A DNA stretch of 64,000 nucleotides from contig NC_135242.1 of assembly GCF_947623445.1 (NCBI RefSeq), positions 2,294,001 to 2,358,000 on the forward strand. The letters are read 5' to 3'. Every line of letters starts with the position of its first letter. The first letter of the stretch is position 1. This document shows positions 9,308-32,119 of this stretch, one piece after another. Made by a program: the position numbers and the translations under genes. A model generated the notes under the pieces. It had not been told where the DNA came from, did not search any database, and saw only the letters and a program-made list of their open reading frames with translations. Origin of the DNA: Clavelina lepadiformis. Taxonomy: Eukaryota > Chordata > Ascidiacea > Aplousobranchia > Clavelinidae.

Positions 9308-12300
9308 CTATCTTGACAACAATTTCTTTCTAGTTAAATCTCGAGTTGTGGTTGTGCGAAACACTTCTGGGAGATTGCATCGAATCTTGTCAAACACTTC
9401 TTCCGAAACTCCTGGCGGGACAACAAACTGGACCGTCCTTGACACTCCCCCATCCCAAGCGGCCATCTCCATCATAAATCCTGAAAAGATGGCGTTATTG
9501 ACACTCACAGAACTGGCAGCAAATACAGTTTAACGAGTTTTTCGCCACGGCATTGCACGCAAGAGCATCGCCACCGTGTCAATTTGAGCACACGGGCTCA
9601 ACCTGGGAAAAGATTTTACGTTGTGCAAGAAATCTGCGCTTCGTGTTGTAAGTTTCTGTCCAAACCAGCCACTAATTTCTGTTCATGACGGTAAGCCATG
9701 TCGCAGTTCGCATACTTCTGTGTAGGGCCGTGTCAAAAATGTCAGTCACGTTCAATCGCCTGTGTCCAAATTCGTCATTCCAATGTTTCTCGACATCGCC
9801 GTTTGCACTTGTCTCGGGTGTGCACGTCATAATCCGATTTGTCATTAACAATTTGGTATTTTTTCGAGTCCAAATTCAAGGTTTTTTAAAACAATTAAAT
9901 TTCTATACAACTTAGGATTCTACTTCTCATTCCTGAAAGTTTTTCGTGCATTAATTTTGAAAGAATGAAAAGTTGCTATGGTGTAACTCGGGCTACTTCC
10001 ATAGAGCATGGTTCGTGTGAAAGACTAAATGTGTAATGTGTGACGTTAAACACGGAAAAATAAAGAAATTCAAAATCGCAGCATTGCTTGTATGGCGAGG
10101 TTGTAGTAAGGTTGCTATAATTCGTGATCTATTCTCTATAGACCCGACTACGACGGTTGCAATTGTTAACCTGGCTCATATATTGTCGAAATAACAGAAT
10201 TCAGGTTTACGAAATCTCTGACCAGTACGCATGAGGCCGATGAAATAAAATGGCTTCTGCCCAAGGTTATGGATGGTTGTGTGGTGACGCCTTTTTTAAC
10301 TAATTTACTGTATTTGTAACTGTCGTTTCATATGGTTTATCATAAAACCAAAATAAAGCGTTTTTTAATTGCGTAAAAGTAAATGTGTAATTTTTGTATT
10401 GGTCAAATTGCTAACGAGTCTAATTCCTAGGAAACCAACTGGTTTGAGTGAGGTTACTGAGGAGTTGTATTAATTCACCTTTCATGCATTTCATCACTAA
10501 TTCGGCTCTTTTCACGCACCACTGGAACGTTATTTCTTCTGTAAGTTCATGGGTCAGTAGCAATGGTATTGTGATGGTTCTTACGTCACAGCTTGACGCC
10601 ACCTGGAAAGTATTGACATTTTATATCTTTACAATCTAAAGAGTTATGTGTTTCCATGAGGAACACTTGAATTACTTATGTAGAAGTCATTACTTTCAGA
10701 ATCTGTCGCAGACTCATGACAACAGGATGCCTGGATGTTACATTCGTGAGTGAAGCCTTCGTCTGAAGCTTTGCCTCGTCGGCAACCAAGTGGAAAACCA
10801 AGTGGACTTGAGATAAATTGGAATGTTTTGTTATGTAGAAATCGCCGTCTTTTAAACGAAAAGAGGTTTCTTCTTCCGATTTCATTCTACAAAAATTAAA
10901 TTCATATAATTTCAGAATTCTTTTGTTATTGCACAAAAGTTGTTCAGCCTACTCGTCACTGGAATCGAAATTTTCACACTGTTTGGCGTGCTTCTCTATC
11001 TCAGCAAGCTGTTCCTTCAGTGAGTCGAAGTGAAATTCAGTGGAGGAATGACATATGGTTGAAAACTCTGGAAAATAAATCCACCGACAGAAGGTTGAGT
11101 TAAGCTTCACAATAGCATGACTTGCATTGAAAAATTGCACCCATAAGAACCACCGGAACTACCTTTCTGTATACTGCTATTGTAGCCAAGCCTGTTATCT
11201 GTCAGAATGACAAGTGCTGAGAGAGAACTCGAATAAAGTGACATTGCTGTCTGGAATCTTTGTGCCTCCATTTCCCTGTTGGCAAAATACCAAATTTTAG
11301 TTAATTATAAACCATCTGCTTTAGGTCATAGTTAGGGGTCCCTCTAAACGTACAGTGTTCCTGCTTCCATGATGAAAATAAAATACTGTAAATATTGTGA
11401 AAACCTTGAACAATAAGTATTGGATGGCGGCTGATAGTTAGCATGCTGCTTGTCTAACATACCCTTCATCAGAATAATGGCAAAAATTCAATGCGTCAGT
11501 AACAATCAGCCGAATGTTGTGCATCGTCTTAAGCTGGGCACCAAGATTAATGGTGAAACTTTCTTCCATAAGTGTGCCAGTGCTGCCAGTTGTCGAAGAC
11601 ACATTTGGAGATCTTCCAGCTTCTTCGTTGTTGAATAACGTATTTCCATTGCTTGACCTCATAACCGATACGGTCTCATCAATGATTTGCTTCATTTTAT
11701 TACTGAAACAAGTAAAATACGAGAGATACTGACAAATTTGAGATCGTTTTTTTCAAAACAGGACAAATCAGCGAACACCGACCAAAATTCTGCATCAGGA
11801 TCTATGTAAAATTACTTGATAATGTGCTGTGATAAAATTCTACAACTGACTACGTACTAGGCTGGTCCACTATCATCAAGGCGGCCGTTATTTCCTTGCA
11901 TTTCTTTATGCAGGTTTATGACCAATTCACGAAATTTACTCTTTTGATTGTTGGTTACAGTGAGATATTCATTCTTCCAGTGTGACTGCAACCGCTACTT
12001 AGAATATTAAAGGTTAAATGCAGAATAAGAAATGTAAGTGCATTAAACTGGAGGTGGCACCCACATAAAATTACGTAAATTGCATTTCAAAACCAGTAAT
12101 GTTATTTGTCAAATGTTAATTTAAAAAAAACTTAAAAAGTGAAATAAATTTCGCCAAACCTCTGCGTCCTCCAAATGCTTTGATGCGAGTATTGTGACGT
12201 CATCATTTGAATATGCAAACCCAACATGCTCGCACGCTCTTGACATTTCCAGTTGGTGGCGCTCTTGCATTTTAGTTAATGACTGTTCCTTGTTCACTAA

Positions 12301-13619: not shown

Positions 13620-15611
13620 TCAATGCAAAGCATAATTAAAGTTGTTGCCAAATTTGTCAAAATTTCGCTTCATGTCCAACTGATTCAGTGTTTCATTGAC
13701 TCGTTTTAAACTGGAAGGCTGAAGAACTTTCTTCTGCAATCGACCACGACTCGTATTCTTTACAGTTTTTAAGTTTGTTAAACCGTTTTCCGATTTCTTT
13801 TTGCCTTTCTTCCTCTTCAGAGAAAGATCTATTTTTCCTCCTAGACCAGCGTGAACATCCCTAAGGAAGGATGGATCCTGCCAATCACTGGATGCAGGTC
13901 GATCCATGAAAGATGATGTGCTGGGTTGATCGGATGACACCGGGTTTCCAAGTACATCTCTATCAATAATTTTTCCATGAAAAGGGCACTTATGGCGATC
14001 TTTGCGAGGACACAGCTTGCCATTAGATAATGGAGCACGGCAGCTTTTTATGACAGCTTCAAACGTCCCGGTAAATTCGATAGTTCGCGAAGTTAATGAG
14101 TTTAATGCAGCATCGGAGACTCCACTGTCGCCTTCACTCGCAGAATGTCCGGACCAAAATCTATGCCCAATGTCAAGCTCTTTTGTTGCACCAAGTTTCA
14201 GGTTCTGTCTCAGTTCTTTGAAACGTTCCTTGTCCCAGGTCAGAAGATCGTGACCAAACGGAACAACGGGGGCTTTTTCTTTCAGGGGATCTTTCTTCGG
14301 CGTTCCATTATGAGAAGTTGACTTTTTGGCAGGAAACTCTTTTTTCCGGGGAAGTTGTGATGAAAAATTGTCCTCTTTTTTAGCTCGCTTACGGCTTTCA
14401 GCTTGCTTTGCTAGAGCATATTGGTACGAAGTGGGATCGTTCATGCTATTGTCACTTCTCAGAGGTTTCCAAATGTTCGTATCACTGGATCTTTTTAGTT
14501 TTTCTTTCTTAGCTGCTTTTAAAGATACTTTTGATTTGAAGCGTTTTGTGCTGGATGCTTCTGGGACTTCAATAAAATCATCAAAATCTTCCTCATCACT
14601 CTCACAATCACCGTTTAACTCATTATACTTATCCAGACATTTTTGCATAGTATCTTTCACATCCACGAGTTTCCGCATGGTCTCCGGAGGAGCACCACAT
14701 TTTCCACCTGTAGTCAACCACTCACGAAGACGAGGCAGATGAATACGATTTGCAGATTTAATGCAGTCTTTTATTCGAGCAAATACAGCTTTGTTGTCCG
14801 ACGTCTGTGTTACATTTATAGTAGATATCTCAGCCAGATTAAGTTGTAGAGTATATCCTCGATCCGGCAAACCATATGCTTGACGATCTTGAGTATTATT
14901 TCCAGATTTACCGCTTGACTGAGGACTGTTACTCGCAGCAGAGTTTTCGACAGAAGGAATATCCTCCTCAAGAAAAGTGGGTACAATTAGTTTCAAGCCG
15001 TTATTTATTTCCGCAACACAAGCTTCGACTTCCCATAGGTTGGAGTCAATTTCCTTTACAACCTTATCAAGCTTGGTAGCATTAACAATTTGCTGTTGGT
15101 TTAACCGAAATTGTTGAGCATAAGTTTGATTGATGTTTTGCAACTGATCGAAGTTTATTTTTTTCACATGTTTTAGATAGTCAAAGCCACGCTTAAGTTT
15201 CCGATATGCGATTCCATATTTATCATTCCAGCCACGAATTGTGGTGAGTGCTTCTAATTTCAATTTGTCCGCTGTGATTTTTGGGGGAGGAAGAGGATTA
15301 TCAAAATCTGTTTCCACAGTTAAGTCCATAAATGTTTGGAAACTGTCCAACAGCATCGTCCGAAACAAATGAGACCTTGAGAACAGTTCACTCGCAATTT
15401 GAAAAGCCGAAAAACGAATTTCACTGTGGTCTTTTTCTAAATGTGTCAGCAAAAGATGAAAAACGTGCTCAACACATTTGTTATTTTTCTTGCAGTGGGA
15501 CTTGATTTTTTTTATTGTAGGTTTAGCCAAAGATGATTCTCCGCTTGTTACAAGTTTTTCGATCAAGGCTTCTAACTCTTGAGCCAACGATAATTCCAAT
15601 TGTTCCCCCAT
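13620..15611 (-). CDS. UVSSA: UV-stimulated scaffold protein A, intronless
   Basis: Transcription-coupled repair factor that brings TFIIH (and USP7) to stalled RNA polymerase II. One open frame of 663 residues from the ATG at 15611, close to the human length (709). The N-terminal 150 or so residues form the VHS/ENTH-like helical domain. Near residue 340-350 the acidic stretch EEDFDDFIEVPE matches the human segment DFVEVPE, which binds the TFIIH p62 PH domain. GHDLLTWDKERFKELRQNLK precedes the UVSSA-type zinc finger near residue 524, CRAPLSNGKLCPRKDRHKCP followed by FHGK, with three Cys and a His as ligands. The C-terminus is lysine-rich and likely nuclear-targeting. The intronless structure is unlike vertebrate UVSSA and the intron-rich neighbours, which suggests intron loss or an old retrocopy that became the working gene. 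Confidence 0.94.
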   Translation of the reverse strand: MGEQLELSLAQELEALIEKLVTSGESSLAKPTIKKIKSHCKKNNKCVEHVFHLLLTHLEKDHSEIRFSAFQIASELFSRSHLFRTMLLDSFQTFMDLTVETDFDNPLPPPKITADKLKLEALTTIRGWNDKYGIAYRKLKRGFDYLKHVKKINFDQLQNINQTYAQQFRLNQQQIVNATKLDKVVKEIDSNLWEVEACVAEINNGLKLIVPTFLEEDIPSVENSAASNSPQSSGKSGNNTQDRQAYGLPDRGYTLQLNLAEISTINVTQTSDNKAVFARIKDCIKSANRIHLPRLREWLTTGGKCGAPPETMRKLVDVKDTMQKCLDKYNELNGDCESDEEDFDDFIEVPEASSTKRFKSKVSLKAAKKEKLKRSSDTNIWKPLRSDNSMNDPTSYQYALAKQAESRKRAKKEDNFSSQLPRKKEFPAKKSTSHNGTPKKDPLKEKAPVVPFGHDLLTWDKERFKELRQNLKLGATKELDIGHRFWSGHSASEGDSGVSDAALNSLTSRTIEFTGTFEAVIKSCRAPLSNGKLCPRKDRHKCPFHGKIIDRDVLGNPVSSDQPSTSSFMDRPASSDWQDPSFLRDVHAGLGGKIDLSLKRKKGKKKSENGLTNLKTVKNTSRGRLQKKVLQPSSLKRVNETLNQLDMKRNFDKFGNNFNYALH

Positions 15612-15759
15612 CAATTGAATGTGAATAGGAACAAATCACAAAAATCATAAGTCGTCAGTATCAAGATTTCTGTGTGAACTACTTTACCCCTAATGATAAA
15701 CAGAAACAATATTACCAACCGAAATGTGAAAAAACAGTGTTGTTGTTCCAACTTTAACA

Positions 15760-15912: not shown

Positions 15913-16030
15913 GGGTATAGTATACAAGTGCACAACCACTGGATGCATTTGTGTGCTAAACCTCATCTACTCAAATTGTGACTTCATCTGTATCTTTGCA
16001 CTTGTAGATTAGACTATTATGATTAGACCC
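15913..16030. mobile_element. Palindromic MITE, copy a
   Basis: Starts GGGTATAGTATACAAGTGCA and ends with the near complement TTGCACTTGTAGATTAGACC plus C. It is flanked by GTTCGTT on both sides, a likely 7-8 base target duplication. Related to the copy at 16395-16496. Confidence 0.65.
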
Positions 16031-16049
16031 AGTTCGTTATGCTAGCCTT

Positions 16050-16300
16050 TCTCACACAGCCTAACTGGAAAGTATATATGGCAGTTTTTGACGAGAAATG
16101 GTTCATGCAAATGCACAAAATTAGGTGTCACGGCATACAGTGAAGCCACTATTCCTTGTTTATTTAAATTGACGTTCAAACAATCAGCTTTTCTATGTTT
16201 ATTTTTTATAAATCGGCGTGACGACAAAATCGTCCGGAGTGCATATCAACGAAGCTCGTACGTGCAGCTGCCAAACTTTCCACAAATGGCCGCAAGTAAC
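16050..16300. repeat. Dispersed repeat family R1, long copy
   Basis: About 250 bases that align end to end with 45.96-46.22 kb: AACTGGAAAGTAT, a middle with TTGTTTATTTA, TATAAATC.(G/A)C(G/A)TGACG, and ACTTTC.AC near the end. No open frame or tRNA-like head. Class unknown. Confidence 0.5.
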
Positions 16301-16394
16301 TGAGCGGAAAAGCACACTATCAGACTAATGCATTTCGTACCGAGGCTAAATCCCTGAATTCTTTGAGTTCCATAACAAACACCAGACAAAGTTC

Positions 16395-16496
16395 GGGTCT
16401 AGTATACAAGTGCACAACCACAGGATGCCTTTGTCTACTAGACCCTAGCTACTAAAATTGCGACGTCATCTGGTTGCGCACTTGCATAGTAGACCC
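16395..16496. mobile_element. Palindromic MITE, copy b
   Basis: About 102 bases, nearly all inverted repeat: GGGTCTAGTATACAAGTGCA at the left pairs with TGCGCACTTGCATAGTAGAC plus CC at the right. Second copy of the element at 15913-16030. Confidence 0.7.
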
Positions 16497-17482
16497 TGTT
16501 CGTTCTAAGTTAGACAATACTGCCTTCGTACTCTACGCGGTAATACACATAAATATAACATCATTATCCGAATTCGAGAGCATTTCCCACTAGCTGTAGT
16601 CAACCTGCAACCAATCTGCGTTGGCTAGTAAACATGCATACGACTACCAACATACTGAGCTACTTTCTAGGCCCAAGGGCTTCCAGGCTATCGCTACCTG
16701 AGTTCTTATTCTCGTGTAACCTCAGTCGTAAAATTGCAACATGGGAAGCAATTTGCGTTCACGACTAATAACCAGCAGGCAAGCCACATTATGAGTAAGT
16801 TGGTTTCAGACAGAGATCTCTGGCAAGTGTATTTTGTGTTTGCGCCTGCTCTTTCGCTGGGTTAAGTTTTACAAAGATAAAATTCGCTCGCGAAGAATGT
16901 CGATATTCTTCTGCCTAATAATAATCGGCGCAAGATCTTCTGCTTTGTCACATTTTTGTCGTATTTGTGAAAAAAACGAACGAATGCCGAAAAAATTATG
17001 CAAGTAGTGGAACAGGCAGCTTGCTTTTGTTACGAAAGCGACTGTAACTATATTAGTGAATACAAACAGTAGTTAAGAAAAATGCTGTAGGATTTGTCCT
17101 TGCATTAAATAGTAATTTATGTGAATTTTGATGAATTAGTAAAGTAGCCTAATTGACGAGTTCCTAAGACCCTATACACATTGACCTTGTACACTTTGGC
17201 GAGGAACAGACGTTTATTTTATTTTCGATTCATACTTAGTAAAAATACACAGTAGGCTAACTTACGTGACATATCCAACATAACTGGAACGTTATTGGGC
17301 AAATACGATAACGCCTTTAATTTCTGTAAATAGTTTTTTTATGTTCAAACAACACGAGACGTTGCTCTTTTATTATATTTCTATCAGTGCTTGCATTCAT
17401 GGCCTAAGATGGTTATTAACTAGATCGCGCACAATGTTACCACATCGAATGTTTTGTAAAGATATGAACAACTACAGAAGTA

Positions 17483-17605
17483 CCGTATTTGTTGCGTTGC
17501 GTTCTATCGCCCGGTGCGCCTTATGTATGAACAAAAAACTAATCAAAGCAATTTATTGACAGTGCGCCTTATAATCGGGTGCGCTTTATGGTCCGTAAAA
17601 TACGG
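17483..17605. mobile_element. Short TA-target MITE, 123 bp
   Basis: Inverted ends CCGTATTT and AAATACGG, flanked by TA on each side, with GTGCGCCTTATAATC-type internal words. The matching sites downstream of the other gene copies read through without it, keeping one TA, so it inserted after the arms separated. Probably Tc1/mariner-mobilised. Confidence 0.7.
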
Positions 17606-17971
17606 TATGCAAGTAAATTGACTTAGCATTAAAAAATATTGCAATTAAACCCTATTGAAAAGCAATTTAATTTTAGCATAAATTTACTGCCAGGATTATA
17701 CGTTAATGTACTGTACAAGCTTTTCACGACTTTGTAGTATTTTTATATGACATCTCATGTAAAATATATCTTCAAGATGCTTAGATATTCCCAATTTGCT
17801 TCGGTTGCATTTCTACTCTGATTTACAATAACACGCAGCTTAAAACATATAAAGATGCAGCCTAGATTTTTATTTACATTTTAACAAAGCAAAAAGGTAA
17901 ACACGCATTCATATTCTGGTACATATAGGCCTGGTTCATATATTTTCAAAATGCTGGTCGTAGGTGCACAA

Positions 17972-18934
17972 TTATGCTTTTGTTTCAAAGATTTGTCTGG
18001 GCCGTTCAACAGGTCTTCGGACGCTTGATAGACATTGAGAAGACGAAACCTGCGTAAATCAACAAAAGTAAAGTTTAGTAAACAAAATATTTGTTATTTT
18101 ATTGCTAAATAAGCTTACATACAAACGTAATAATGTTATCATATAGATTAGTCTGGAATAGTATCACAATTTTCATCCTCAGACAAAGGAAAGATTTTGC
18201 ACGACTTAAACTCTGCGATGATTCCTCGTCACTCGAGCCCAGGTCACCGAGCTTATTTTTGTTCAAGTTCCGATTGTCACAAACTTTTTTTATTTGTTTT
18301 CTTGTTGTTGTACAGCATTGACCGAACTTGGAACTGTTCACCAAAATCACTGAACAGAAGCAAGTGTCGTTCATACATTGCTCCAAGGAATTACAAAGGT
18401 AGCGCAACTGGGAATCAAATTTGGCAGGCGTAGGCCCAATTACGAGCCGGGTAGGCTACGCTAAACACTCCACCACCAAGCCGATTATTTCAGCAAAATA
18501 AATTAAGTACTTTGGAAACGAAATAAACGTACCGGGACAGGAAAAGCCGATGATTGGAAGGTGAATGGATTAGGCAATTTCAGGCAATAACATCTCCATG
18601 TGCAGATTCTGATTATCCTGTAGGTGTAATGAGGTCTCCAAAAATAAACTAAAAATGTTAAAATAAAAAAATGTCTTTATAATTTTTAACTTCTCAACAG
18701 CCTATATCGAAGTGCATACACAGCACATGGACAAGAAGAAATAAAACGACAAATAAATTTCATAACTTGCCAACAGTTGTTTTTTGTAACTTGTAAATAT
18801 AATGTTCAAATCAACAAACTAGACTCACTTCGATGACCGACTTGAGGAATAAAAATGGGTCTTTCTTCTTGACATTCAGCTGAATATGCCAGGAAGCAAA
18901 TCACCAACAACGAGAATAAAAATCTTCCATTCAT
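17972..18934 (-). CDS. Secreted Arg/Cys-rich peptide, copy 1
   Basis: I do not recognise this gene. Coding exons 18934-18829, 18648-18533 and 18049-17972 (phases 1 and 0) give 99 residues. A signal peptide MNGRFLFSLLVICFLAYSA leads to a short linker ending PQVGHR, which is 1 residue shorter than in the other copies. Exon 2 gives a strongly basic, aromatic segment with no acidic residue, containing RIIRICTWRCYCLKL, and exon 3 adds one more Cys and several Arg (SSVRRPVERPRQ). A net positive charge and even-looking cysteine spacing suggest an antimicrobial peptide precursor; this is inference from composition only. This copy has WRPHYTYR where copies 2 and 4 have WRRHYTYR. A minus-strand TATA box and a noncoding first exon lie upstream. 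An AATAAA follows the stop in all copies. Confidence 0.7.
18153..18483 (-). mobile_element. tRNA-derived SINE (family S1) in intron of copy 1
   Basis: Reads on minus from a tRNA-like head (GGTGGTGGAGTGTTTAGCGT, A-box position) through a weak B box to a tail ending GATACTATTCCAG. It is about 85 bases longer than in the sister copies because of an internal indel. It sits in the second coding intron, in the sense direction of the gene. Confidence 0.65.
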
Positions 18935-19178
18935 GATTCCAACTTTTCTTTTAAGAGGAAACGAACCTAAAAAATCAAATTTTAAATTAACCCTTCTTGT
19001 TAAAAATAAATATTTTTCCATAAAGAACCATATCTATACAAATTAACTGCTTGTAATAGAATTAGAAATTTTGCAAAACTTACCTTATAAAAAACTTTTG
19101 AAAGTTTTCTTAAATATCAAGCTGTAATGCCAATTTCTATTAGAAAATGACTGCATTCAACGAGAATACGGCTCGTCT

Positions 19179-19185
19179 TTTTATA
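19179..19185 (-). promoter_or_regulatory. TATA box of peptide copy 1
   Basis: TATAAAA on the minus strand, preceded by ATTGGTCC (inverted CCAAT). Downstream, near 19.10 kb, a noncoding exon ends at a GTAAGT donor whose acceptor TTTTTTAG lies 36 bases or so before the ATG. The same layout is kept at copies 2 and 3. Confidence 0.65.
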
Positions 19186-19199
19186 GAGGACCAATCGCT

Positions 19200-21560
19200 C
19201 AATTTTTAAATCGTGAAAAAATATGCTCAAACTTTTTTCTTTAATCGCTTTCAAATCTACTTTGTCGATCAACATTTGATAATGAATATTTATCCGTCAG
19301 CTTAAACCACACAAATGTAGGGGATTTAGAAATATGTGTGTCAATGACAGTGAACGACGCAAGATTCCGAATGAGAGCTTAATTTTGCGCATGCATAAAA
19401 GATCATTCACTGAATTATTGCTGCAATATCGAGTGATGGTAAATAATAATAATCACAAACTTATTTTGGAGACTTCAGTGAGACAAGTGCTATAAATTAT
19501 TTGGCAGAAGTACTTCTCAAAGCCATTTGATGTCGTCACAGTACATTTTGGCAGCTATTTATCAAGACAAGTTTACAAATAAAGTTACAATAACTTATTA
19601 GGCTTTTGTTTAAATTCTCTAAAAAACACCGTTCGCTTGATAAATAATTTGACGCTAATTTTGGACGTAATTTGCATTTTTTCTAAAGCTGCTCACGTTT
19701 AAAAGGTCATCTCTTGCCAACACTCACAATACCACAACAAACATTTCGTTGATGAGGTTTTTTGAGCATATTTTACGCATATGTCTTCCCATAACAAGGC
19801 AAGTGGAAACCACGGTAACTCCCTGAAAAAATCATGTTGAGCTGTTTGAGGAGAAGCAAACCTCAGGAATGGTTTAACAGCACGCTCAAAATTTCCCAGT
19901 TTGACCCAAAACACTTTGCTGCTCCGCTAAATAAATCCAATGTAATTGAGCAGAATTTCCAAAAAATCTTTCTTAAAACGCCACCAGTCAATGTATTTAT
20001 AAACCAATGTTCAAACAAGTTTTGTGGTGTTATGCGTTTTAATAGGACATCATGTCGACAATTTTAAATCATAGAATTCTTTATAGGTTTACTAATCTTG
20101 ACTTACTTTTCATCCAGGAAAGCTTTGGTATAAACCGGCTTTAAATCTTTTGACGATTTGCGTCGTTATAATGCAAAACACACGGATAACATATAATATA
20201 CCTGGCAAATGCACACATAATAATAACACACAATAACAACTATAGTTCATGTCGGCTACGTTATACAGTAATTGTATGGCTACTTCTAAAGCAAGCATTA
20301 TTGCTTGGGATTTACAGATCCGCGATTAGGTAAGAGTCCTTGGTTAAGAAAATATTCAAACAAGGAACTTAACATGGCGCATATGACATAAAACATTTAT
20401 CAAAAAATTTGCATTTTTTTCAAAACAGCTCACGTTTAAAATTCCTTTTATACCAACAACAAAAAATTTCACAACAAAAATGCCGTTTTCGGAAATTATT
20501 TTGCATTCATTTCTGCCAATATCTCATTAGCATAAGGTAAATGCGGGAATTATCCAGAAAATTCAACTGTGTTGTTTGTGGAAAAAGTTAAAATAAAAAT
20601 TTGCGCGCAGTTCGTGTACGCTCATAACCATAATGCCTCGGGCATAACTTGTAATTTTTGCGGGAAAAAACATATTTTAACGAGCAATTCTTTCCGTCAT
20701 ACAATTTTTACCGGGATATACGTGATCAAAGTAGGCCTAATTGTCTATAGTTAAAAATTGATACATTTTGCACGTACAGTCTTCTACAATCTAAACCATG
20801 CCGTCAATGGTAATATAGAGATTAAAGAACCATTCAGAGAAAATAGTTAATAAAAACAACAGCACGGAAAATGGCGAAATAATCATGCATGAAAATGTAT
20901 TCGACACAAACTGTTGCAAAGTTCACAGTTTTCCGTGTGGTAAAGTAAGCAAAGACTGTAATAAACTTCTACACATAATCAGGAATTCTATGATTTCTAA
21001 ATGTTAATGAATGCTTGTATAGCTGCCGTAATAAAGTTGTTGAAATTAAGCTTATTTAAAATTAAGAAACGTCGTTATAAGACGCTTAAGGAAATAAAAA
21101 TCAAGCATTTATGAGCATTGACAGGTGAAAGGTTTTGTTGCAATTCTGCTCATTTGCATTGGTTTTATTTAGCAAAACAGCAAAGAGTTTTAGCTAAAAC
21201 TGGGAAATTTTAAGCGTGCTGTTAAATCATTCCTGGGGTTTGCTTCTCCTTAAACAGCTCAACATAATTTGTTCAGGGAATTACCGTGGTTTCCACTTGT
21301 ATTGTTCTACGAACGACATATGCGTAAAATATGCACAAAGAACCTTAATTATCAACGACATGTTTGTTGTGATATTGTGCGTGTTGGCATGAGATGATCT
21401 TTTAAACGTGAGCAGCTTTAGAAAATATGCAAATTACGTCCAAATTTAGTGCCAAAAAATTTAGCAAGCAAACGATGTTTTTTAGGGAATTTGAACAAAA
21501 GCTTAATAACTTATCGCAAAGAAAAAAATTTAAGTATATTTTTTCACGATTTAAAAATTG
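19200..21560. other. Shared upstream spacer between divergent copies 1 and 2
   Basis: Copies 1 and 2 point away from each other across this spacer. Its outer parts are inverted repeats; the centre (20.4-21.1 kb) recurs directly at 24.95-25.69 kb, and partly inverted at 28.64-29.0 kb. No supported gene. A 61-codon open frame at 20569-20754 is discussed under rejections. Confidence 0.5.
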
Positions 21561-21574
21561 AGAGACTGGTCCTC

Positions 21575-21581
21575 TATAAAA
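21575..21581 (+). promoter_or_regulatory. TATA box of peptide copy 2
   Basis: TATAAAA with the first transcribed exon expected from about 21.60 kb to its donor at 21675|GTAAGT. The intron ends at 21792 and the next exon carries the ATG at 21825. Confidence 0.65.
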
Positions 21582-21824
21582 GACGAGTCGTATTCTCGTT
21601 GTATGCAGTCATTTTCGAATAGAAATTGGCATTACAACTTGATATTTAAGAAAACTTTGGAAAATTTTTTAAAAGGTAAGTTTTGCAAAATTTCTAATTC
21701 TTTTACTAGCAATTAGCTTATGTAGATATGGTTCTTTAAGAAAAGAAATTTATTTTTAACAAAAAAGGTTAATTTAAAGTTTGATTTTTTAGGTTCGTTT
21801 CCTCTTAAAAGAAAAGTTAGAATC

Positions 21825-22681
21825 ATGAATGGAAGATTTTTATTCTCGTTGTTGGTGATTTGCTTCCTGGCATATTCAGCTGAATGTCAAGAGCTAAGAC
21901 CCATTTCCCTTGGTCCCATCGTCGGTCATCGAAGTGAGTGTAGTTTGTTGATTTGATCATTATTCAAAAATTACAAAGAACAAGTTAAGATGTTTATTTG
22001 TCTTTGTATTTCTTCTTGTCTATGTGTTGTGTATGCACTTTGATATAGGCTGTTGAGAAGTTAAAAATTTTTAATACTTTTTCATTTTAACATTTTTAGT
22101 TTATTTTTGGAGACGTCATTACACCTACAGAATAATCAGAATCTGCACATGGAGATGCTATTGCCTGAAATTGCCTAATCCATTCACCTTCCAATCATCG
22201 GCTTTTCCTGTCCCGGTACGTTTATGTCGTTTCCAAAGTACTTTATTTTGCTGAATTATTCGGCTTGGTGGTAGAGTGGTTAGCGTAGCCTAACCCGGCT
22301 CGTAATTAGGCGTACGACTACCAAATTTGATTCCCAGTTGCGCTACCTTTGAAAAGCCTTAGTTCAATGTACGAACGATGCTTGCTTCTGTTCAGTGATT
22401 TTGGTGAATAGTTCCAAGTTCGGTCAAGGAAAAGGAATCATCGCAGAGTTTTAATCGAGCAGAATTTTTCCTTTGTCTAAGGATGAAAACTGTGATACTA
22501 TACCAGATTAATCTATATAATAACACTATTGCGTTTGTATATATTTAGCAATAAAATAACAAATATTTTGTTTACTAAACTTTACTTTTGTTGATTTACG
22601 CAGGTTTCGTCTTCTCAATGTCTATCAAGCGTCCGAAGACCTGTTGAACGGCCCAGACAAATCTTTGAAACAAAAGCATAA
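21825..22681 (+). CDS. Secreted Arg/Cys-rich peptide, copy 2
   Basis: Coding exons 21825-21933, 22100-22215 and 22604-22681, all GT-AG, total 303 nt, 100 residues. The signal peptide is identical to copy 1, then CQELRPISLGPIVGHR, then the basic exon-2 segment (YFWRRHYTYR, RICTWRCYCLKL) and the same exon 3 ending RQIFETKA. Cleavage after AYSA would leave a mature peptide of about 80 residues with five Cys (one at position 2, three in C-x3-C-x-C, one near the C-terminus). Its promoter, noncoding exon and polyadenylation signal AATAAA (22779-22784) are all present, so this copy looks fully expressible. Function unknown; host-defence peptide is the leading guess. Confidence 0.72.
22261..22505 (+). 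mobile_element. tRNA-derived SINE S1 in intron of copy 2
   Basis: Head GGCTTGGTGGTAGAGTGGTT has an A-box-like word; AATTTGATTCCC is a decayed B box about 60 bases on. The tail includes TTCAGTGATTTTGGTGAA and ends near GATACTATACCAG. Confidence 0.7.
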
Positions 22682-22784
22682 TTGTGCACCTACGACCAGC
22701 ATTTTGAAAATATATGAGCCAGGCCTATATGTACCAGAATATGAATGTGTATTCACCTTTTTGCTTTGTTAAAATGTAAATAAA

Positions 22785-23150
22785 AATCTAGGCTGCATCT
22801 TTATATGTTTTAAGCTGAGTGTTATAAGCCATTGTAAATCATAGTAGGACTATAACTGAAGCAAATTGGAAATAACTAAACAAGTTGTAAACAGTTTTCA
22901 CGTATAATGTCATATGAAACACTTTCACGTAAATTGTGGTGAAAAGCTTGTACATTAATGTGCAATTCTAGCAAAAGCGAGTCGATTTTATGCTAAAAAC
23001 GACGTCTTATGTGTAGCTTTTATAATAACAAGACGGTTTAATTGCAGTTTGTTTTACGGCTGAGGCAATTAACTTGTACACTACTGTAGTTGTTCATACA
23101 TTTACGAAGCATTTCATGTCGTAAGTCGTAACATTGTACACGATCTAGCT
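22785..23150. other. 3' flank of copy 2
   Basis: No gene. Repeated almost unchanged downstream of copy 3 (27.36-27.72 kb) and in a diverged form downstream of copy 4. Confidence 0.4.
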
Positions 23151-23346
23151 CAGCGGTTCTTAACCTTTTTCATCTGTTTCCCATTTACGCCAACTACCGA
23201 ACCCAAATTTCCCCGCTTTGGGCGATTGGGCAGTGGCTACACTGCAAAATGCATGTTATACAGTAAGCTGTAGCGTGTATGTTAATTTACATCAAAACTT
23301 TTTTCGTGAGTTTGATTTTAGGGTACAAAACATATATAGGTTAATT
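23151..23346 (+). mobile_element. hAT-type MITE, right end lost (unit 1)
   Basis: Begins CAGCGGTTCTTAACC after ATCTAGCT. It matches the complete copy at 30377-30638, but is broken off at the junction with the next tandem unit. Confidence 0.65.
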
Positions 23347-23359
23347 AAATAAAATAGAA

Positions 23360-23439
23360 ATGGGCCTTGGCTGTTGACATTCAGCTGAATATGCCAGGAA
23401 GCAAATCACCAACAACGAGAGTAAGAATCTTCCATTTAT
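23360..23439 (-). pseudogene. Peptide-gene exon 1 fragment, unit 2
   Basis: Reads like the signal-peptide exon on minus but stops after the first few mature residues, at the tandem-unit junction. The start codon position no longer reads ATG, and exons 2 and 3 are absent. Upstream sequence lacks the TATA box and noncoding exon. A dead by-product of the duplication. Confidence 0.75.
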
Positions 23440-23479
23440 GATTCTAACTTTTTCTTTTAAGAGGAAACGAACCTAAAAA

Positions 23480-26130
23480 ATCAAACCTTAAATTAATCCT
23501 TTTTGTTAAAAATAAATTATTTTTTAGAGAACCATATCTACATAAGTTAATTGTTAATAATAACATAAGTTAATAGTAACAACAAACTTATTTTGAGAAC
23601 TTTAGTGAGACAAGTGCTATAAATTATTTGACATAAATGCTTCTTAAAGCCATTTGATATCGTTAGAGTACATTTTGGCAGCTGTTTATCAAAATAAGTT
23701 TAAAAGTGAGGTTACAATAACGTATTAAACTTTTGTTCAAATTCTGGATAAAACACTGTTTTGCTGTAAAAATTTTTGGCGCTGAATTTGGACGTAATTT
23801 GCATATTTTCTAAAGCTGCTCACGTTTAAAAGGTCATCTCATGCCAACACGCACAATATCACAACAAACTTGTCGTTGATAATAATTAAGGTTCTTTGTG
23901 CATATTTTACGCATGTGTCGTTCGTATGACAAGGCAAGTGGAAACCACGGTAACTCCCTGAACAAATCATGTTGAGCTGTTTGAGGAGAAGCAAACCTCA
24001 GGAATGGTTTAACAGCACGCTTAAAATTTCCCAGTTTTAGCAAAAACACTTCGCTGCACTGCTAAATAAATCCAATGCAAATGAGCAGAATTTCAACAAA
24101 ATCTTTCTTAAACCGCCACCAGTCAATGTCTTTATAAACCAATGTTCAAAAACTTTTTGTGGCGTTATGCGTTTTAACAGGACATCATGTCGACAATTTT
24201 AAATCATAAAATCCTTTATTCTCTGGCGAGGTTTACCAGTCTTTACTTACTTTTCATCCAGGAAAGCTTTGGTATAAAACGGCTTTAAATTTTTTACATT
24301 TTGCGTCCTTATAACGCAAAACAATTAACGGATAACATATAATATACCTAGAAATTGCACGAATAATAATAACACACAATAACACAATAGTTCATGTCGG
24401 CTACGTTATACAGTAATTGTACGGCTACTTCTAAGGCAAGCATTGTTGCTTGGGATATACAGATACGCGATTAGGTAAGAGTGCTTGGTTAAGAAAATAT
24501 TCAAACAAGGAACTTAACATGGCGCATATGACATAAAACATTTTTTGATGAGATTAATGATGTCAATTGCTGGTTAGTGATGAACTAAAATCAAGCATTA
24601 AAACTAGAACCTGAGTCGGTTTCTCTGTTAAGTTGAGCAAACTCTTAATTCACAAGTAAGTTCAAGGTTCAAGAGTAAGTTGGTTGTAAACGTCATAAAA
24701 TTACTACATTTTCTGCGATTCTTTTAAAGAAAATTACAAGACCGGAACCTCTTTTAAAACAAATTTTTCAAACCTATACATACCAGAATATGTTTGGTTT
24801 AAGAAATCTTTAGCGAGGCGATTAGCCTTCAATAGGTTTTTAGCGAAAGTTGTTAATTATGTTGTTGCACAATAAGCTGATAGGCTACAGGTCTGTTGAA
24901 AATTTTATAACAATGCCTTATTCTTGTATCAAATATTTTTGATTTGGAATTGGCAAAAAATTTGCATTTTCTTCAAAACAGCTCACGCTTAAAATTCCGT
25001 TTTTACCAACAACAAAAAATCTCACAACTAAAATGCCGTTTTCGGAAATTATTTTGCATTCATTTCTGCCAATATCTCATTAGCATAAGGTAAATGCGGA
25101 AATTATCCAGAAAATTCAACTGTGTTGTTCGTGGGAAAAGTTAAAATAAAAATTCGTACGCAGTTCGTGTACGCTCATAACCATAATGCCTCGGGCATAA
25201 CTTGTAATTTTTGCGGGAAAAAACGTGTTTTAACGAGCAATTCTTTCCGTCATACAATTTTTACCGGGATATACGTGATCAAAGTAGGCCTAATTGTCTA
25301 TAGTTAAAAATTGATACATTTTGCACGTACAGTCTTCTACAATCTAAACCATGCCGTCAATGGTAATATAGAGATTAAAGAACCATTCAGAGAAAATAGT
25401 TAATAAAAACAACAGCACGGAAAATGGCGAAATAATCATGCATGAAAATGTATTCGACACAAACTGTTGAAAAGTTCACAGTTTTCCATGTTGTAAAGTA
25501 AGCAAAGAGTCAAAGACTGTAATAAACTTCTACACATAATCAGGAATTCTATGATTTGTAAATGTTAATGAATGCTTGTATAGCTGCCGTAATAAAGTTG
25601 TTGAAATTAAGCTTATTTAAAATTAAGAAACGTCGTTATAAGACGCATAAGGAAATAATAATCAAACATTTATAAGCTTTGACAGGTGAAAGGTTTTGTT
25701 GCATTTCTACTCATTTGCATTGGATTTATTCAGCAAAACAGCGACGAGTTTTAGCTAAAACTGGGAAATTTTGAGCGTGTTGTTAAACCATTCCTGAGGT
25801 TTGCTTCTCCTCAAACAGCTCAACATGATTTGTTCAGGGAGTTACCGTGGTTTCCACTTGTATGGTTCTACGAACGAGATATGCGTAAAATATGCTCAGG
25901 GAACCTTAATTATCAACGACATGTTTGTTGTGATATTGTGCGCGTTGACATGAGATGATCTTTTAAACGTGAGCAGCTTTAAAAAATATGCAAATTACGT
26001 CCAAATTCAGCGCCAAAAAATTTTACAGAAAAACAGTGTTTTTTAGAGAATTTGAACAAAAGCTTAATAACTTATCGCAAAGAAAAAATTTGAGCATATT
26101 TTTTCACAATTTAAAAATTGAGCGATTGGT
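23480..26130. other. Upstream spacer of copy 3 (tandem unit 2)
   Basis: No gene supported. It repeats the 19.3-21.56 kb spacer in the same orientation, with an extra segment of about 400 bases near 24.55-24.95 kb that unit 1 lacks (insertion here or deletion there). Confidence 0.5.
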
Positions 26131-26134
26131 CCTC

Positions 26135-26141
26135 TATAAAA
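26135..26141 (+). promoter_or_regulatory. TATA box of peptide copy 3
   Basis: TATAAAA preceded by GCGATTGGTCCTC, as in copy 1. The donor of the noncoding exon (AAAAG|GTAAGT, near 26.24 kb) is kept. Confidence 0.65.
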
Positions 26142-26387
26142 AAACGAGCCGTATTCTCATTGTATGCAGTCATTTTCTAATAGAAATTGGCATTACAACT
26201 TGATATTTAAGAAAACTTTGGAAAGTTTTTTAAAAGGTAAGTTTTGCAAAATTTCTAATTCTTTTACTAGCAATTAGCTTATGTAGATATTGTTCCTTAA
26301 AGAAAAACAAAATTATTTTTAACAAAAAAGTTTAATTTAAGGTTTCATTTTTTAGGTTCGTTTCCTCTTAAAAGAAAAGTTAGAATC

Positions 26388-27252
26388 ATGAATGGAAGAT
26401 TTTTATTCTCGTTGTTGGTGATTTGCTTCCTGGCATATTCAGCTGAATGTCAAGAGCTAAGACCCATTTCCATTGGTCCCATCGTCGGTCATCGAAGTGA
26501 GTGTAGTTTGTTGATTTGATCATTATTCAAAAGCTACAAAAGACAAGTTAAGGTGTTTATTTGTCTTTGTATTCATTCTTGCCTATGTGTTGTGTATGCC
26601 TTTGGTATAGGTTGTTGAAATGAAGTTAAAAATTATAAAGACTTTTGTTTATTTTAACATTTTTAGTTTATTTTTGGAGACCTCATTACACCTACAGGAT
26701 AATCAGAATCTGCACATGGAGATGCTATTGCCTGAAATTGCCTAATCCATTCACCTTCCAATCATCGGCTTTTCCTGTCCCGGTACGTTTATGTCGTTTC
26801 CAAAGTACTTAATTTATTTTGCTGAAATAATCGGCTTGGTGGTAGAGTGGTTAGCGTAGCCTAACCCGGCTCGTAATTAGGCGTACGACTACCAAATTTG
26901 ATTCCCAGTTGCGCTACCTTTGAAAAGCCTTAGTTCAATGTACGAACGATGCTTGCTTCTGTTCAGTGATTTTGGTGAATAGTTCCAAGTTCGGTCAAGG
27001 AAAAGGAATCATCGCAGAGTTTTAATCGAGCAGAATTTTTCCTTTGTCTAAGGATGAAAACTGTGATACTATACCAGATTAATCTATATAATAACACTAT
27101 TGCGTTTGTATATATTTAGCAATAAAATAACAAATATTTTGTTTACTAAACTTTACTTTTGTTGATTTACGCAGGTTTCGTCTTCTCAATGTCTATCAAG
27201 CGTCCGAAGACCTGTTGAACGGCCCAGACAAATCTTTGAAACAAAAGCATAA
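26388..27252 (+). CDS. Secreted Arg/Cys-rich peptide, copy 3
   Basis: Coding exons 26388-26496, 26667-26782 and 27175-27252 total 303 nt, 100 residues. Same signal peptide; linker CQELRPISIGPIVGHR; exon 2 has WRPHYTYR like copy 1, though the gene is otherwise closest to copy 2. That mosaic pattern points to gene conversion between copies. Exon 3 is identical at protein level. TATA box, noncoding first exon and AATAAA are present, so it should be expressible. Confidence 0.72.
26832..27075 (+). mobile_element. tRNA-derived SINE S1 in intron of copy 3
   Basis: Nearly identical to the insertion in copy 2 and at the same intron position, hence inherited by duplication rather than inserted afresh. 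Confidence 0.7.
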
Positions 27253-27722
27253 TTGTGCACCTACGACCAGCATTTTGAAAATATATGAGCCAGGCCTATA
27301 TGTACCAGAATATGAATGCGTGTTTACCTTTTTGCTTTGTTAAAATGTAAATAAAAATCTAGGCTGCATCTTTATATGTTTTAAGCTGAGTGTTATAAGC
27401 CATTGTAAATCATAGTAGGACTATAACTGAAGCAAATTGGAAATAACTAAACAAGTTGTAAACAGTTTTCACGTATGATGTCATATAAAAACACTTTCAC
27501 GTAAATTGTGGTGAAAAGCTTGTACATTAATGTGCAATTCTAGCAAAAGCGAGTCGATTTTATGCTAAAAGCGACGTCTTATGTGTAGCTTTTATAATAA
27601 CAAGACGGTTTAATTGCAGTTTGTTTTACGGCTGAGGCAATTAACTTGTACACTACTGTAGTTGTTCATACATTTACGAAGCATTTCATGTCGTAAGTCG
27701 TAACATTGTACACGATCTAGCT

Positions 27723-27920
27723 CAGCGGCTCTTAACCTTTTTCATCTGTTTCCCATTTACGCCAACTACCGAACCCAAATTTCCCCGCTTTGGGCGATTG
27801 GGCAGTGGCTACACTGCAAAATGCATGTTATACAGTAAGCTGTAGCGTGTATGTTAATTTACATCAAACATTTTTTCGTGAGTTTGATTTTAGGGTACAA
27901 AACATATATGGGTTAATCAA
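27723..27920 (+). mobile_element. hAT-type MITE, right end lost (unit 2)
   Basis: Same truncated element and same break point as at 23151-23346, so the truncation came before this tandem duplication. Confidence 0.65.
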
Positions 27921-27931
27921 ATAAAATAGAA

Positions 27932-28011
27932 ATGGGCCTTGGCTGTTGACATTCAGCTGAATATGCCAGGAAGCAAATCACCAACAACGAGAATAAGAAT
28001 CTTCCATTCAT
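27932..28011 (-). pseudogene. Peptide-gene exon 1 fragment, unit 3
   Basis: Signal-peptide exon fragment with its ATG still present on minus, ending after the first mature residues at the unit junction. No exon 2 or 3 and no promoter, so no full product is possible. Confidence 0.75.
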
Positions 28012-28059
28012 GATTCTAACTTTTTCTTTTAAGAGGAAACGAACCTAAAAAATCAAACC

Positions 28060-29030
28060 TTAAATTAATCCTTTTTGTTAAAAATAAATTATTTTTTAGA
28101 GAACCATATCTACATAAGTTAATTGTTAATAATAACATAAGTTAATAATAACAACAAATTTATTTTGAGAACTTTAGTGAGACAAGTGCTATAAATTATT
28201 TGACATAAATGCTTCTTAAAGCCATTTGATGTCGTTAGAGTACATTTTGGCAGCTGTTTATCAAAATAAGTTTAAAAGTGAGGTTACAATAACGTATTAA
28301 ACTTTTGTTCAAATTCTGTATAAAACACTGTTTTTCTGTAAAAATTTTTGGCGCTGAATTTGGACGTAATTTGCATATTTTCTAAAGCTGCTCACGTTTA
28401 AAAGATCATCTCATGCCAACACCCACAATATCACAACAAACTTGTCGTTGATAATTAAGGTTCTTTGTGCATATTTTACGCATATCTCGTTTGTAGAACA
28501 ATACAAGTGGAAACCACGGTAACTCCCTGAAAAAATCATGTTGAGCTGTTTGAGGAGAAGCAAACCCAGGAATGGTTTAACAGCACGCTCAAAATTTCCC
28601 AGTTTTAGCTAAAACTCGTCGCTGTTTTGCTGAATAAATCCAATGCAAATGAGTAGAAATGCAACAAAACCTTTCACCTGTCAAAGCTTATAAATGTTTG
28701 ATTATTATTTCCTTATGCGTCTTATAACGACGTTTCTTAATTTTAAATAAGCTTAATTTCAACAACTTTATTACGGCAGCTATACAAGCATTCATTAACA
28801 TTTAGAAATCATAGAATTCCTGAAGTTTATTACAGTCTTTGACTCTTTGCTTACTTTACAACATGAAAAACTGTGAACTTTGCAACAGTTTGTGTCGAAT
28901 ACATTTTCATGCATGATTATTTCGCCATTTTCCGTGCTGTTGTTTTTATTAACTATTTTCTCTGAATGGTTCTTTAATCTCTATATTACCATTAGGTATA
29001 TTAACCTCTATATTAACCAAAAAGGTTAAT
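28060..29030. other. Truncated third spacer and junction with copy 4
   Basis: 28.1-28.64 kb matches the unit spacer; 28.64-29.0 kb is an inverted copy of about 25.37-25.74 kb; near 29,005 it jumps straight into the intron just before the ATG exon of copy 4. The normal TATA box and noncoding exon are missing. Confidence 0.6.
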
Positions 29031-29082
29031 TTAAAGTTTGATTTTTTAGGTTCGTTTCCTCTTAAAAGGAAAAGTTAGAATC

Positions 29083-29938
29083 ATGAATGGAAGATTTTTA
29101 TTCTCGTTGTTGGTGATTTGCTTCCTGGCATATTCAGCTGAATGTCAAGGGGAAAGGCCCATTTCCCTTGGTCCCATCGTCGGTCATCAATGTGAGTGTA
29201 GTTTGTTGATTTGATCATTATTCAAAAATTACAAAGAACAAGTTAAGATGTTTATTTGTCTTTGTATTCATTCTTGCCTATGTGTTGTGTATGCACTTTG
29301 ATATAGGCTGTTGAGAAGTTAAAAATTTTTAATACTTTTTCATTTTAACATTTTTAGTTTATTTTTGGAGACGTCATTACACCTACAGAATAATCAGAAT
29401 CTGCACATGGAGATGTTATTGCCTGAAATTGCCTAATCCATTCACCTTCCAATCATCGGCTTTTCCTACCCCGGTACGTTTATTTCGTTTCCAAATTACT
29501 TTATTTTGTTGAAGTATTCGGCTCGGTGGTGGAATGGTTAGCGTAGCCTACTCGGCTCGTAATTGGGCGTACGACTATCAAATTTGATTCTCAGTTGCGC
29601 TACCTTTGAAAAGCCTTAGTTCAATGTACGAACGATGCTTGCTTCTGTTCAGTGATTTTGGTGAACAGTTCCAAGTTCGTTCAAGAAAAAAGAATCATCG
29701 CAGAGTTTTAATCGAGCAGATTTTTTCCTTTGTCTAAGGATGAAAACTGTGATACTATACCAGATTAATCTATATAATAACACTATTGCGTTTGTATATA
29801 TTTAGCAATAAAATAACAAATATTTTGTTTACTAAACTTTACTTTTGTTGATTTACGCAGGTTTCATCTTCTCAATGTCTATCAAGCGTCCGAAGACCTG
29901 TTGAACGGCCCAGACAAATCTTTGAAACAAAAGCATAA
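29083..29938 (+). CDS. Secreted Arg/Cys-rich peptide, copy 4 (promoter lost)
   Basis: Coding exons 29083-29191, 29358-29473 and 29861-29938 total 303 nt, 100 residues, frame intact. It differs from copies 2 and 3 in CQGERPISLGPIVGHQ, Phe for Ile at the first exon join, and PTP for PVP at the end of exon 2. It is the inverted counterpart of copy 1 at the array's outer edge. The usual TATA box and first exon are absent, and the acceptor before the ATG exon now has no matching donor. Expression would need a new promoter or a trans-spliced leader. The coding region nevertheless shows no decay. Confidence 0.62.
29519..29763 (+). mobile_element. tRNA-derived SINE S1 in intron of copy 4
   Basis: Same site as in the other copies, somewhat diverged (GGCTCGGTGGTGGAATGGTT head), consistent with copies 1 and 4 being the older arms. 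Confidence 0.68.
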
Positions 29939-30376
29939 TTGTGCACCTACGACCAGCATTTTGAAAATATATGAGCCAGGCCTATATGTACCAGAATATG
30001 AATGCGTGTTTACCTTTTTGCTTTGTTAAAATGTAAATAAAAATCCAGGCTGCATCTCTGTTTGTTATAAAATATTGTAAACCATAGTATAGGACTAGGC
30101 TATACCTGAAGCAAATTGGAAATATCTAAGCAAATTGTAGATAGCCTTTGCGTATGATGTCATATCAAACACTTTCGGGCAAATTATCGTAAAAAGCTCG
30201 TACATTAATGTACAATTCTAGCAAAAGCGAGTCGATTTCATGCTAAAAGCGACGTCTTATGAGTAGCTTTTATAGTAATAAGACAGTTTAGTTGCAGTTT
30301 CTTTTATGGATAAGGCCATTAACTTGTACATTATTGTAGCATCCCATGTCGTAAGTCGTGAAATTGGGGTCGATCT

Positions 30377-30638
30377 CAGCGGTTCTTAACCGTTTTCATC
30401 TGTTTCCCCATTTATGCCAACTACCAAACCGAAATTTTTCTCCATGAAGCGATTGGGCAGTGGCAACACTGCAAAATGCATATTATACATTAAGCTGTAA
30501 CGTGTATGTTAATTTACATCAAAACGTTTTTCCTGCGTTTGATTTTAGGGTACAAAACATATATAGGTTAATTATTTCTCACCTGAACTTGCAAAATTTT
30601 GAATTGGTAGTAAAATTCCCACAGGTGAAGAACCGCTG
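30377..30638. mobile_element. hAT-type MITE, complete, 262 bp
   Basis: Ends CAGCGGTTCTTAACC and, complemented, CAGCGGTTCTTCACC. Comparing copies, the left flank ATCTAGCT and right flank ATCCAGTT fit a decayed 8-base duplication. The matching place in the left arm (near 17.43 kb, AACTAGATCG) has no insertion. Confidence 0.75.
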
Positions 30639-31108
30639 ATCCAGTTTAAAACAATATTAGGCTATAGATATGTAAGCACTGATACAAATATAATAAAAGA
30701 ACAACGTCTCTTGCTGTTTGAACATAAGAAGCAATTTTCAGAAATAAAAGGTTTTATCGTATTTGCCCGATAACTTTCCAGTTATGTTGGATATGTCACG
30801 TAAGTTACTGTATATTTTCACTAAGTATGGGTCGAAACGAAAATAAACGTCTGTTCATCGCCAAAGTTGCCGCAATTTCTCTCAATGCATAGGGTCGTAG
30901 AGTAGCTTAGAAAACTTGAACTCGTCAATTACTTTACTAATTCATCAAAAAACATGTATACTACTTTTTAATGCAAGGACAAATCCTACAGCGTTTTTCT
31001 TAGCTACTGTTTTTATTCACTAATATAGTTACAGTCGTTCTCGTAACAAAAGCAAGCTGCCTGTTCCAATACTTGCATAATTTTTCGCCATTCGTTCTTT
31101 TTTTTTCT

Positions 31109-32119
31109 AACCAACGGAAACGGTTTCGAATGGCTTCCATATAATAAGTTAGTAGAAAATGTTTGTACGAAACTGAAATCCGCAAAAAATTTTCTGAATT
31201 TTGTATAAAGTTGTATTTTGTCTATCTGCTGTGCACTCGATTGTTCCCGTAACAATTAGTTCAGGTCACTCATTGCTCCAGAAATACTAACCATAACAAA
31301 TTCCAACCTTTGTGAAGCAAGAGGTTTGTTAAGGGGAATCCCCGTTTACGATAACTGAAAGATCTGAAACTTTTCAATACTTGTATTTCAAATTTTGAGG
31401 ATTATTATTGAGTCGAACAAAACTAAGATCATAAAAATTATATTCTAGACGTGTAAAAAGTAATTTTGTTTTTCACATTGATAATTAATTGCAGATTTTA
31501 AAAGCACAGTCCTAGAATCCAACTCTAAAATCTGTACACATCTCATCATATATTTGATTTCTGTTTATTAAAGCCACACAGTGAAGCGCCCACTAGGGGT
31601 GAAGAAACCAAGCGATGGAAGACACACCAAGCAAAGTTGATTGAAATTTTAAAACAAGAACGGAAACACTGTCGGAGTAGAATTGAAAAAAAAACACGGG
31701 CAAAGCGTCAGAGTTTCCAAATTTCGGAAATTAAGTTCGATTTATATAAAAAAAAATTCGCTTCGTCAACTCTATCAATCAACGCGTCACCTGTTACCTC
31801 ATAAAACAAAAGCAGCAACAGTTGAACATACTTTCCACAGCGTGGCATCACAGACAAGTAGGGATACGCCACGCCGCGACAAAGTGGCGCGTAATGTCGT
31901 TAACCACAGTTATGCTTCATACGACAATGTAAAGGCACTAATGATGTCATCACATGATCTCATCAAACAAAAGAAAATAACAAACATCTGGATATAGATA
32001 TGGAAAAATCACGCGACTAAAGGCGCTGACGTTACGCAAGTGACGTAATAATCACCCCATCGAGCCATTCGAGCAACGCGAAAGCAAAAAGGCCGTTGGC
32101 GGTAAGAACGTGCAGAAGA
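31109..32119 (-). other. 3' UTR region of ARHGAP39
   Basis: Beyond the palindrome edge. A minus-strand AATAAA at 31564-31569 is about 550 bases past the ARHGAP39 stop and is the likely polyadenylation signal. A plus-strand open frame here (31683-31997) is not believed. Confidence 0.4.

Follow-up and report, generated by a model that had tools for sequence, protein, structure and literature searches.

What do the four closely similar small genes clustered on chromosome 3 of the sea squirt Clavelina lepadiformis encode, and do their products serve host defence? The cluster lies in a stretch of 64 kb (contig C3, C3:2294001-2358000; hereafter the window, in whose numbering the positions on this chromosome are given), and a preliminary description had proposed that its genes, here named A to D, encode an undescribed secreted, cationic, cysteine-containing host-defence peptide. 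They belong to a family of seven genes, including three diverged members (E, F and G) spread over no more than 22.4 kb of chromosome 4. That this gene family is real and under selection is, judging from its conserved structure and substitution ratios, very nearly certain. Of the functions considered, that of a new host-defence-like peptide family is the most likely, with about an even chance of being right. Beyond what had been described before, the family is extended to seven genes, evidence of selection is provided and gene D is found to be without the usual promoter.

A seven-gene family on two chromosomes

All four genes of the cluster were rebuilt from the sequence with three coding exons each. 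Gene A, on the minus strand (17972-18934; coding exons 18934-18829, 18648-18533 and 18049-17972), encodes 99 residues. The other three, on the plus strand, encode 100 residues each: B (21825-22681; 21825-21933, 22100-22215 and 22604-22681), C (26388-27252; 26388-26496, 26667-26782 and 27175-27252) and D (29083-29938; 29083-29191, 29358-29473 and 29861-29938). The four are open from ATG to TAA, with GT and AG at the ends of both coding introns, whose phases are 1 and 0. The intact coding frames and coding splice sites announced for them were thus recovered in 4/4 cases; the word "intact" is valid for the coding parts only, because D is devoid of both a TATA box and the 5' untranslated exon. Protein B consists of a leader MNGRFLFSLLVICFLAYSAEC, a linker QELRPISLGPIVGHR, a core IYFWRRHYTYRIIRICTWRCYCLKL and a remainder. 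The hydrophobic leader, assessed by eye, is predicted to be secretory. Neither aspartate nor glutamate is specified by exon 2 in any of A to D, in agreement with the acid-free basic aromatic core previously noted.

The chromosome 4 relatives are E (plus strand; C4:20933748-20933844, 20934096-20934211 and 20934316-20934393), F (plus strand; C4:20955441-20955525, 20955685-20955797 and 20956039-20956122) and G (minus strand; C4:20939267-20939180, 20939017-20938902 and 20938628-20938542), all with intron phases 1 and 0 and terminated by a stop codon. Chance open frames were rejected as an explanation of the cluster because these three diverged genes keep the same structure, intron phases and protein pattern included. 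In F and G the donor that follows exon 1 is weak (GTTTGT, GTTCGT), and these junctions are therefore the least certain.

The extent of the family was delimited by searching the genome (209 Mb, 95 contigs) with protein queries. The 17 matches of B correspond to 14 in the cluster, two exons of a single gene on chromosome 4 and one on contig C9, and the 16 matches of E (10 in the cluster and six on chromosome 4) revealed two further members. F-like and G-core queries gave six and three matches, respectively, the single one outside both loci (C8, expectation value (E) 4.8) being attributed to chance. The C9 match (E 0.007, 34% identity) was also rejected, as it contains internal stops and the stretch, when read, carries no family exons. 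Exon profiles, applied to six-frame translations of the window and of 70 kb of chromosome 4, a scope that strongly diverged members elsewhere could escape, detected the seven genes and two exon 1 fragments, the next best match having an E of 0.028. This last match, a core-like short frame (9508-9597, minus strand), has no adjacent exon 1 or exon 3 match and was considered a chance occurrence among 6216 frames. In a midpoint-rooted tree of the seven proteins, two of whose four inner branches are starred, F groups with G and E with A to D, a long branch leading to G.

Conserved residues and selection

The seven proteins all carry an invariant core, Y-x-W-x5-Y-x7-WRC-x-C, and 11 columns of the mature part are identical throughout (P26, Y38, W40, Y46, W54, R55, C56, C58, F65, C81 and P92, the positions of P26, F65 and P92 depending on gap placement). 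This basic aromatic core, preceded by a linker that changes fast, has about 25 residues and a charge of +4 to +7, and the tail holds one further conserved cysteine. Mature cysteines number four in six of the seven proteins and three in G; three are arranged as C-x3-C-x-C, the fourth being located 23 residues further in B. With a predicted cut before Gln or His, the mature peptides would comprise 72-79 residues, with net charges of +8, +10, +9, +9, +7, +10 and +4 from A to G. Exon 2 is free of acidic residues in 6/7 genes, and 10-12 of its 37-38 residues are aromatic.

Between the two loci, the ratio of replacement to synonymous substitution rates (dN/dS) for B and E is 0.16 in the leader, 0.88 in the linker and 0.09 in exon 2 (38 columns), the tail being saturated for dS (proportions of replacement and synonymous differences, pN and pS, of 0.50 and 0.81). 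D and E give 0.13 for exon 2 and 0.81 for the linker, and the whole-protein ratio for F and G is 0.29. Because synonymous changes have nearly saturated between the loci, such ratios are rough. The comparison of synonymous and replacement differences that had been suggested as a check gave a consistent result for exon 2, with pS exceeding pN in all nine pairs examined by region, by a small gap in A/D and B/D, which differ by 3-4 changes. Furthermore, exons 2 and 3 taken together differ less than introns within the cluster: 3/194 vs 54/553 sites between A and B (Fisher test, p 5.6e-5), 1/194 vs 55/558 between A and C (p 8.0e-7) and 5/194 vs 64/553 between A and D (p 7.2e-5). Globally, these data indicate that the protein encoded by exon 2 is under purifying selection.

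It is accordingly very improbable that the genes are non-functional copies decaying after duplication. The promoter region of D has been lost and two truncated copies of exon 1 persist; moreover, the linkers of B and D differ by five replacement changes and one silent change, a pattern that would be expected if D were relaxed, the changes being too few for proof. However, none of the seven coding regions is interrupted, their phases are conserved and constraint between the loci is strong, so that decay would fit D at most.

A putative defence role and its rivals

The seven genes encode short secreted peptides whose leader would be cut before Gln or His and whose cysteines, four in 6/7 proteins, would form two disulfides. 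If the family does act in host defence, the peptides would be released from blood cells or a barrier epithelium, and their Arg or Lys, Trp and Tyr residues would bind anionic microbial surfaces and membranes. The chromosome 3 copies have been multiplied by inverted and tandem duplication, an increase that would raise gene dose. A more specific proposal, somewhat short of an even chance, is that this is an undescribed disulfide-bearing, aromatic, cationic host-defence family in which core and tail form one folded effector and not a helix freed from an anionic pro-region. If true, the family would belong to the very class of cysteine-bearing candidates that was removed by design from the genome-wide screen of Ciona, as presented in PMC7387483. 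Sampling of cationic peptides with cysteines has been poor in sea squirts, and PMC7460354 calls the turgencins the first cysteine-rich antimicrobial peptides (AMPs) of ascidians. The natural variants of the Clavelina family (cores of +4 to +7, one cysteine-deficient member and one promoter-deficient copy) could serve to test the roles of core, cysteines and gene dose.

Homology searches yielded no relative in the collections compared, none of which is a tunicate proteome or an AMP database. For proteins B and E (two of the seven), no Pfam family matched up to an E of 10, and PDB sequences gave only chance matches (E 1.9 for B and 1.6 for a profile of the seven rows); homology to a known non-defence family, designated beforehand as the observation that would speak against a defence role, was therefore found neither in Pfam for these two proteins nor among PDB sequences. 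The 21 distinct cationic segments of Ciona (22 candidates in the paper, two of them identical) gave at best an E of 0.94, over 18 residues, which is not significant, and a 34-residue fragment of turgencin A had no match up to an E of 10. In the literature text searched, strings of 7-8 letters from the core did not occur, and shorter ones occurred in four papers that are unrelated by title. A prokaryotic origin was also rejected, since 28 bacterial or archaeal stretches fitted one of two short peptide patterns and no relative was among them. The dissimilarity to known tunicate antimicrobial types claimed at the outset thus extends to Pfam, PDB, the 21 Ciona segments and the turgencin fragment, the separation from clavanins and styelins being by description.

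Several known groups nevertheless resemble the family. The linear cationic antimicrobial peptides (LCAMPs) of Ciona described in PMC7387483 (Ci-MAM, Ci-PAP, KH.C1.640, KH.S921.1 and others) also derive from secreted precursors of 50-100 residues, with a basic, often Trp/Arg-rich active part and a signal peptide conserved within multigene families. However, the screen that found them excluded cysteine-bearing candidates, whereas 7/7 Clavelina proteins carry three or four cysteines, and an anionic region at the C-terminus, seen in 17 of the 22 candidates of that screen, has no consistent equivalent in Clavelina. Turgencins A and B from Synoicum turgens are likewise cationic, cysteine-bearing ascidian peptides, but with six cysteines in about 36 residues, an amidated C-terminus and CXMAC and KKXGG motifs, according to PMC7024374; the Clavelina proteins have three or four cysteines and neither motif. 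The beta-hairpin AMPs covered in PMC10608444 (tachyplesins, arenicins and capitellacin) are short and rich in Arg and aromatic residues, with four cysteines in most. They comprise 17-22 residues; in the Clavelina family three cysteines are clustered as C-x3-C-x-C with a distant fourth, the PDB matches are chance ones and the one structural model is a weak helix. Clavanins and styelins from Styela clava share tunicate origin, positive charge and richness in aromatics, but are described in PMC7460354 as helical, with 23 and 32 residues, in contrast to the cysteine-bearing 72-79 residues expected in Clavelina after leader removal.

A calculation of hydrophobicity, helical moment and charge that reproduced 7/7 triples published for Ciona in PMC7387483 was applied to the six distinct cores (those of A and C being identical), giving hydrophobicities of 0.69-0.87, moments of 0.108-0.256 and charges of +4 to +7. 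The seven tested Ciona peptides listed there range from -0.03 to 0.62, from 0.118 to 0.380 and from +4 to +12, respectively. Charge and moment therefore overlap, the moment of 5/6 cores falling inside the published range. The peptide encoded by exon 2 of B (38 residues), when modelled without alignment, has a helix at residues 2-22, with scores too low for the model to be relied on (mean predicted local distance difference test score 67.7, predicted template modelling score 0.31).

Other observations weigh against a defence role or the data invoked for it. Core hydrophobicity exceeds that of all seven Ciona peptides. Whole-core helix and strand moments are not higher than those of shuffled sequences in any of four cores, and the argument from an amphipathic helix or strand was dropped for this reason. 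G lacks one core cysteine. An anionic C-terminal region is not consistent across the seven proteins, the net charge of exon 3 being +3 in A to D and F, -2 in E and 0 in G, and the C-terminal tail is partly conserved, which would be unneeded in a simple lytic peptide. With regard to selection, exon 1, which was excluded from the Fisher tests, differs about as much as introns (9/106 in A/B, 9/106 in A/C and 11/106 in A/D), and gene conversion, which confounds identity among genes A to D, could contribute. Finally, no strict NF-kappa-B site occurs within 1.7 kb upstream of any of the seven genes, a loose match being present in G only. This absence counts against induction and not against defence. 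Indeed, as reported in PMC7387483 and PMC9966394, kappa-B sites are predicted before lipopolysaccharide-inducible genes of Ciona, two antimicrobial genes are devoid of them, one non-inducible gene has several, and botryllin of Botryllus is constitutive. Candidate GATA, C/EBP, ETS and E-box-like matches are present upstream. The argument from an inducible promoter was abandoned, as the strict site is missing in 7/7 genes. As for the earlier view that amplification with a TATA promoter fits an inducible defence peptide, these features taken alone do not point to such a role, and one of the four genes is without that promoter.

Some of these features would suit a secreted ligand, toxin-like effector or enzyme inhibitor, whose core and tail would form a single fold held by two disulfides and recognize one protein target. 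Specific residues are invariant from core to tail, beyond mere composition, exon 2 has a low dN/dS and hydrophobicity lies above that of the tested Ciona AMPs. This alternative is nonetheless rather unlikely, as local multiplication, a mature charge of +4 to +10 and a nearly acid-free exon 2 would be unusual for a ligand, and neither Pfam, searched with proteins B and E, nor PDB sequences gave homology to a known ligand or inhibitor. Less probable still is a structural peptide cross-linked in the tunic, whose tyrosines would be converted into 3,4-dihydroxyphenylalanine and whose cysteines would link into the matrix. The 10-12 aromatics among 37-38 exon 2 residues, together with the basic residues, would agree with such a function. 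Cross-linked matrix proteins, however, usually have internal repeats, whereas each Clavelina protein is one short unit without any, and its Trp-Arg-Cys pattern is invariant, with Tyr positions that are not free.

Promoters and history of the cluster

TATA-type elements are located 251 bases before the ATG in A (19179-19185, minus strand), 250 in B (21575-21581, plus strand) and 253 in C (26135-26141, plus strand); the TATA promoter attributed to the cluster is thus found in these three genes and not in D. Aligned with their counterparts in E, F and G, the upstream regions of A to C show a common arrangement in which the TATA-type element is accompanied by a leader exon and a leader intron, the donor being uncertain in E. 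The leader intron of B would extend from 21676 to 21792 (plus strand), with a GGTAAGT donor and a TTTTTTAG acceptor, those of A and C being similar. In D, the TATA box and leader exon are absent where A to C have them, the nearest TATA matches lying 394 and 764 bases before the ATG, and this gene may be silent or driven by another promoter.

Beyond the stop codon, A to D carry TGTAAATAAA (17869-17878 on the minus strand; 22775-22784, 27346-27355 and 30032-30041 on the plus strand). The window contains five matches vs 0.92 expected, a number reached in 1/100 shuffles, and E, F and G carry it as well. It may join a UGUA element to a polyadenylation signal.

Self-comparison of positions 16000-32000 clarifies the duplication layout. 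Outer inverted arms at 16970-17426 and 30638-31105 are 82% identical and agree with the outer bounds previously given. Inside them are an inverted A/B pair (18318-19242 vs 21518-22427, 89%) and tandem copies of 3.7 kb, one carrying B (20401-24107) and the other C (24954-28675), 96% identical; the cluster is therefore no single simple palindrome, in contrast to what was described there. D is a shorter copy within the cluster. Truncated exon 1 copies lie in open frames on the minus strand at 23344-23472 (profile E 3e-17) and 27916-28044 (3e-19). B and C differ at 14/165 aligned sites in intron 1 and at 2/388 in intron 2, and B and D at 3/166 in intron 1; this patchy identity suggests gene conversion among copies.

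The similarity between B and D starts at 29013, which corresponds to the inside of the leader intron of B, and the segment directly upstream of D (28289-28993) derives, in inverted orientation, from DNA located farther away from B. D lost its TATA box and leader exon through the breakpoint at 28993-29013; the linker replacements of D are absent from B.

Intron 2 carries a dispersed repeat in A (18142-18425, minus strand) and in the matching parts of B, C and D, at least 36 of the 44 matches listed falling outside the cluster with 69-79% identity (40 of 925 candidates scored). Near this repeat lies a stretch that we take to be tRNA-like, with a box A-like TGGTAGAGTGG in B, and these features suggest a short interspersed element. 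Intron 2 of A retains about 95 bases that are missing from B, C and D. ARAGORN detected no tRNA gene in the window. Just left of the cluster, a single open frame of 671 residues (13623-15635, minus strand) encodes the DNA-repair factor UVSSA, and the other neighbours (an NAD-dependent epimerase, a transporter fragment, a C1orf109-like gene and an RYBP/YAF2 gene) are all ordinary.

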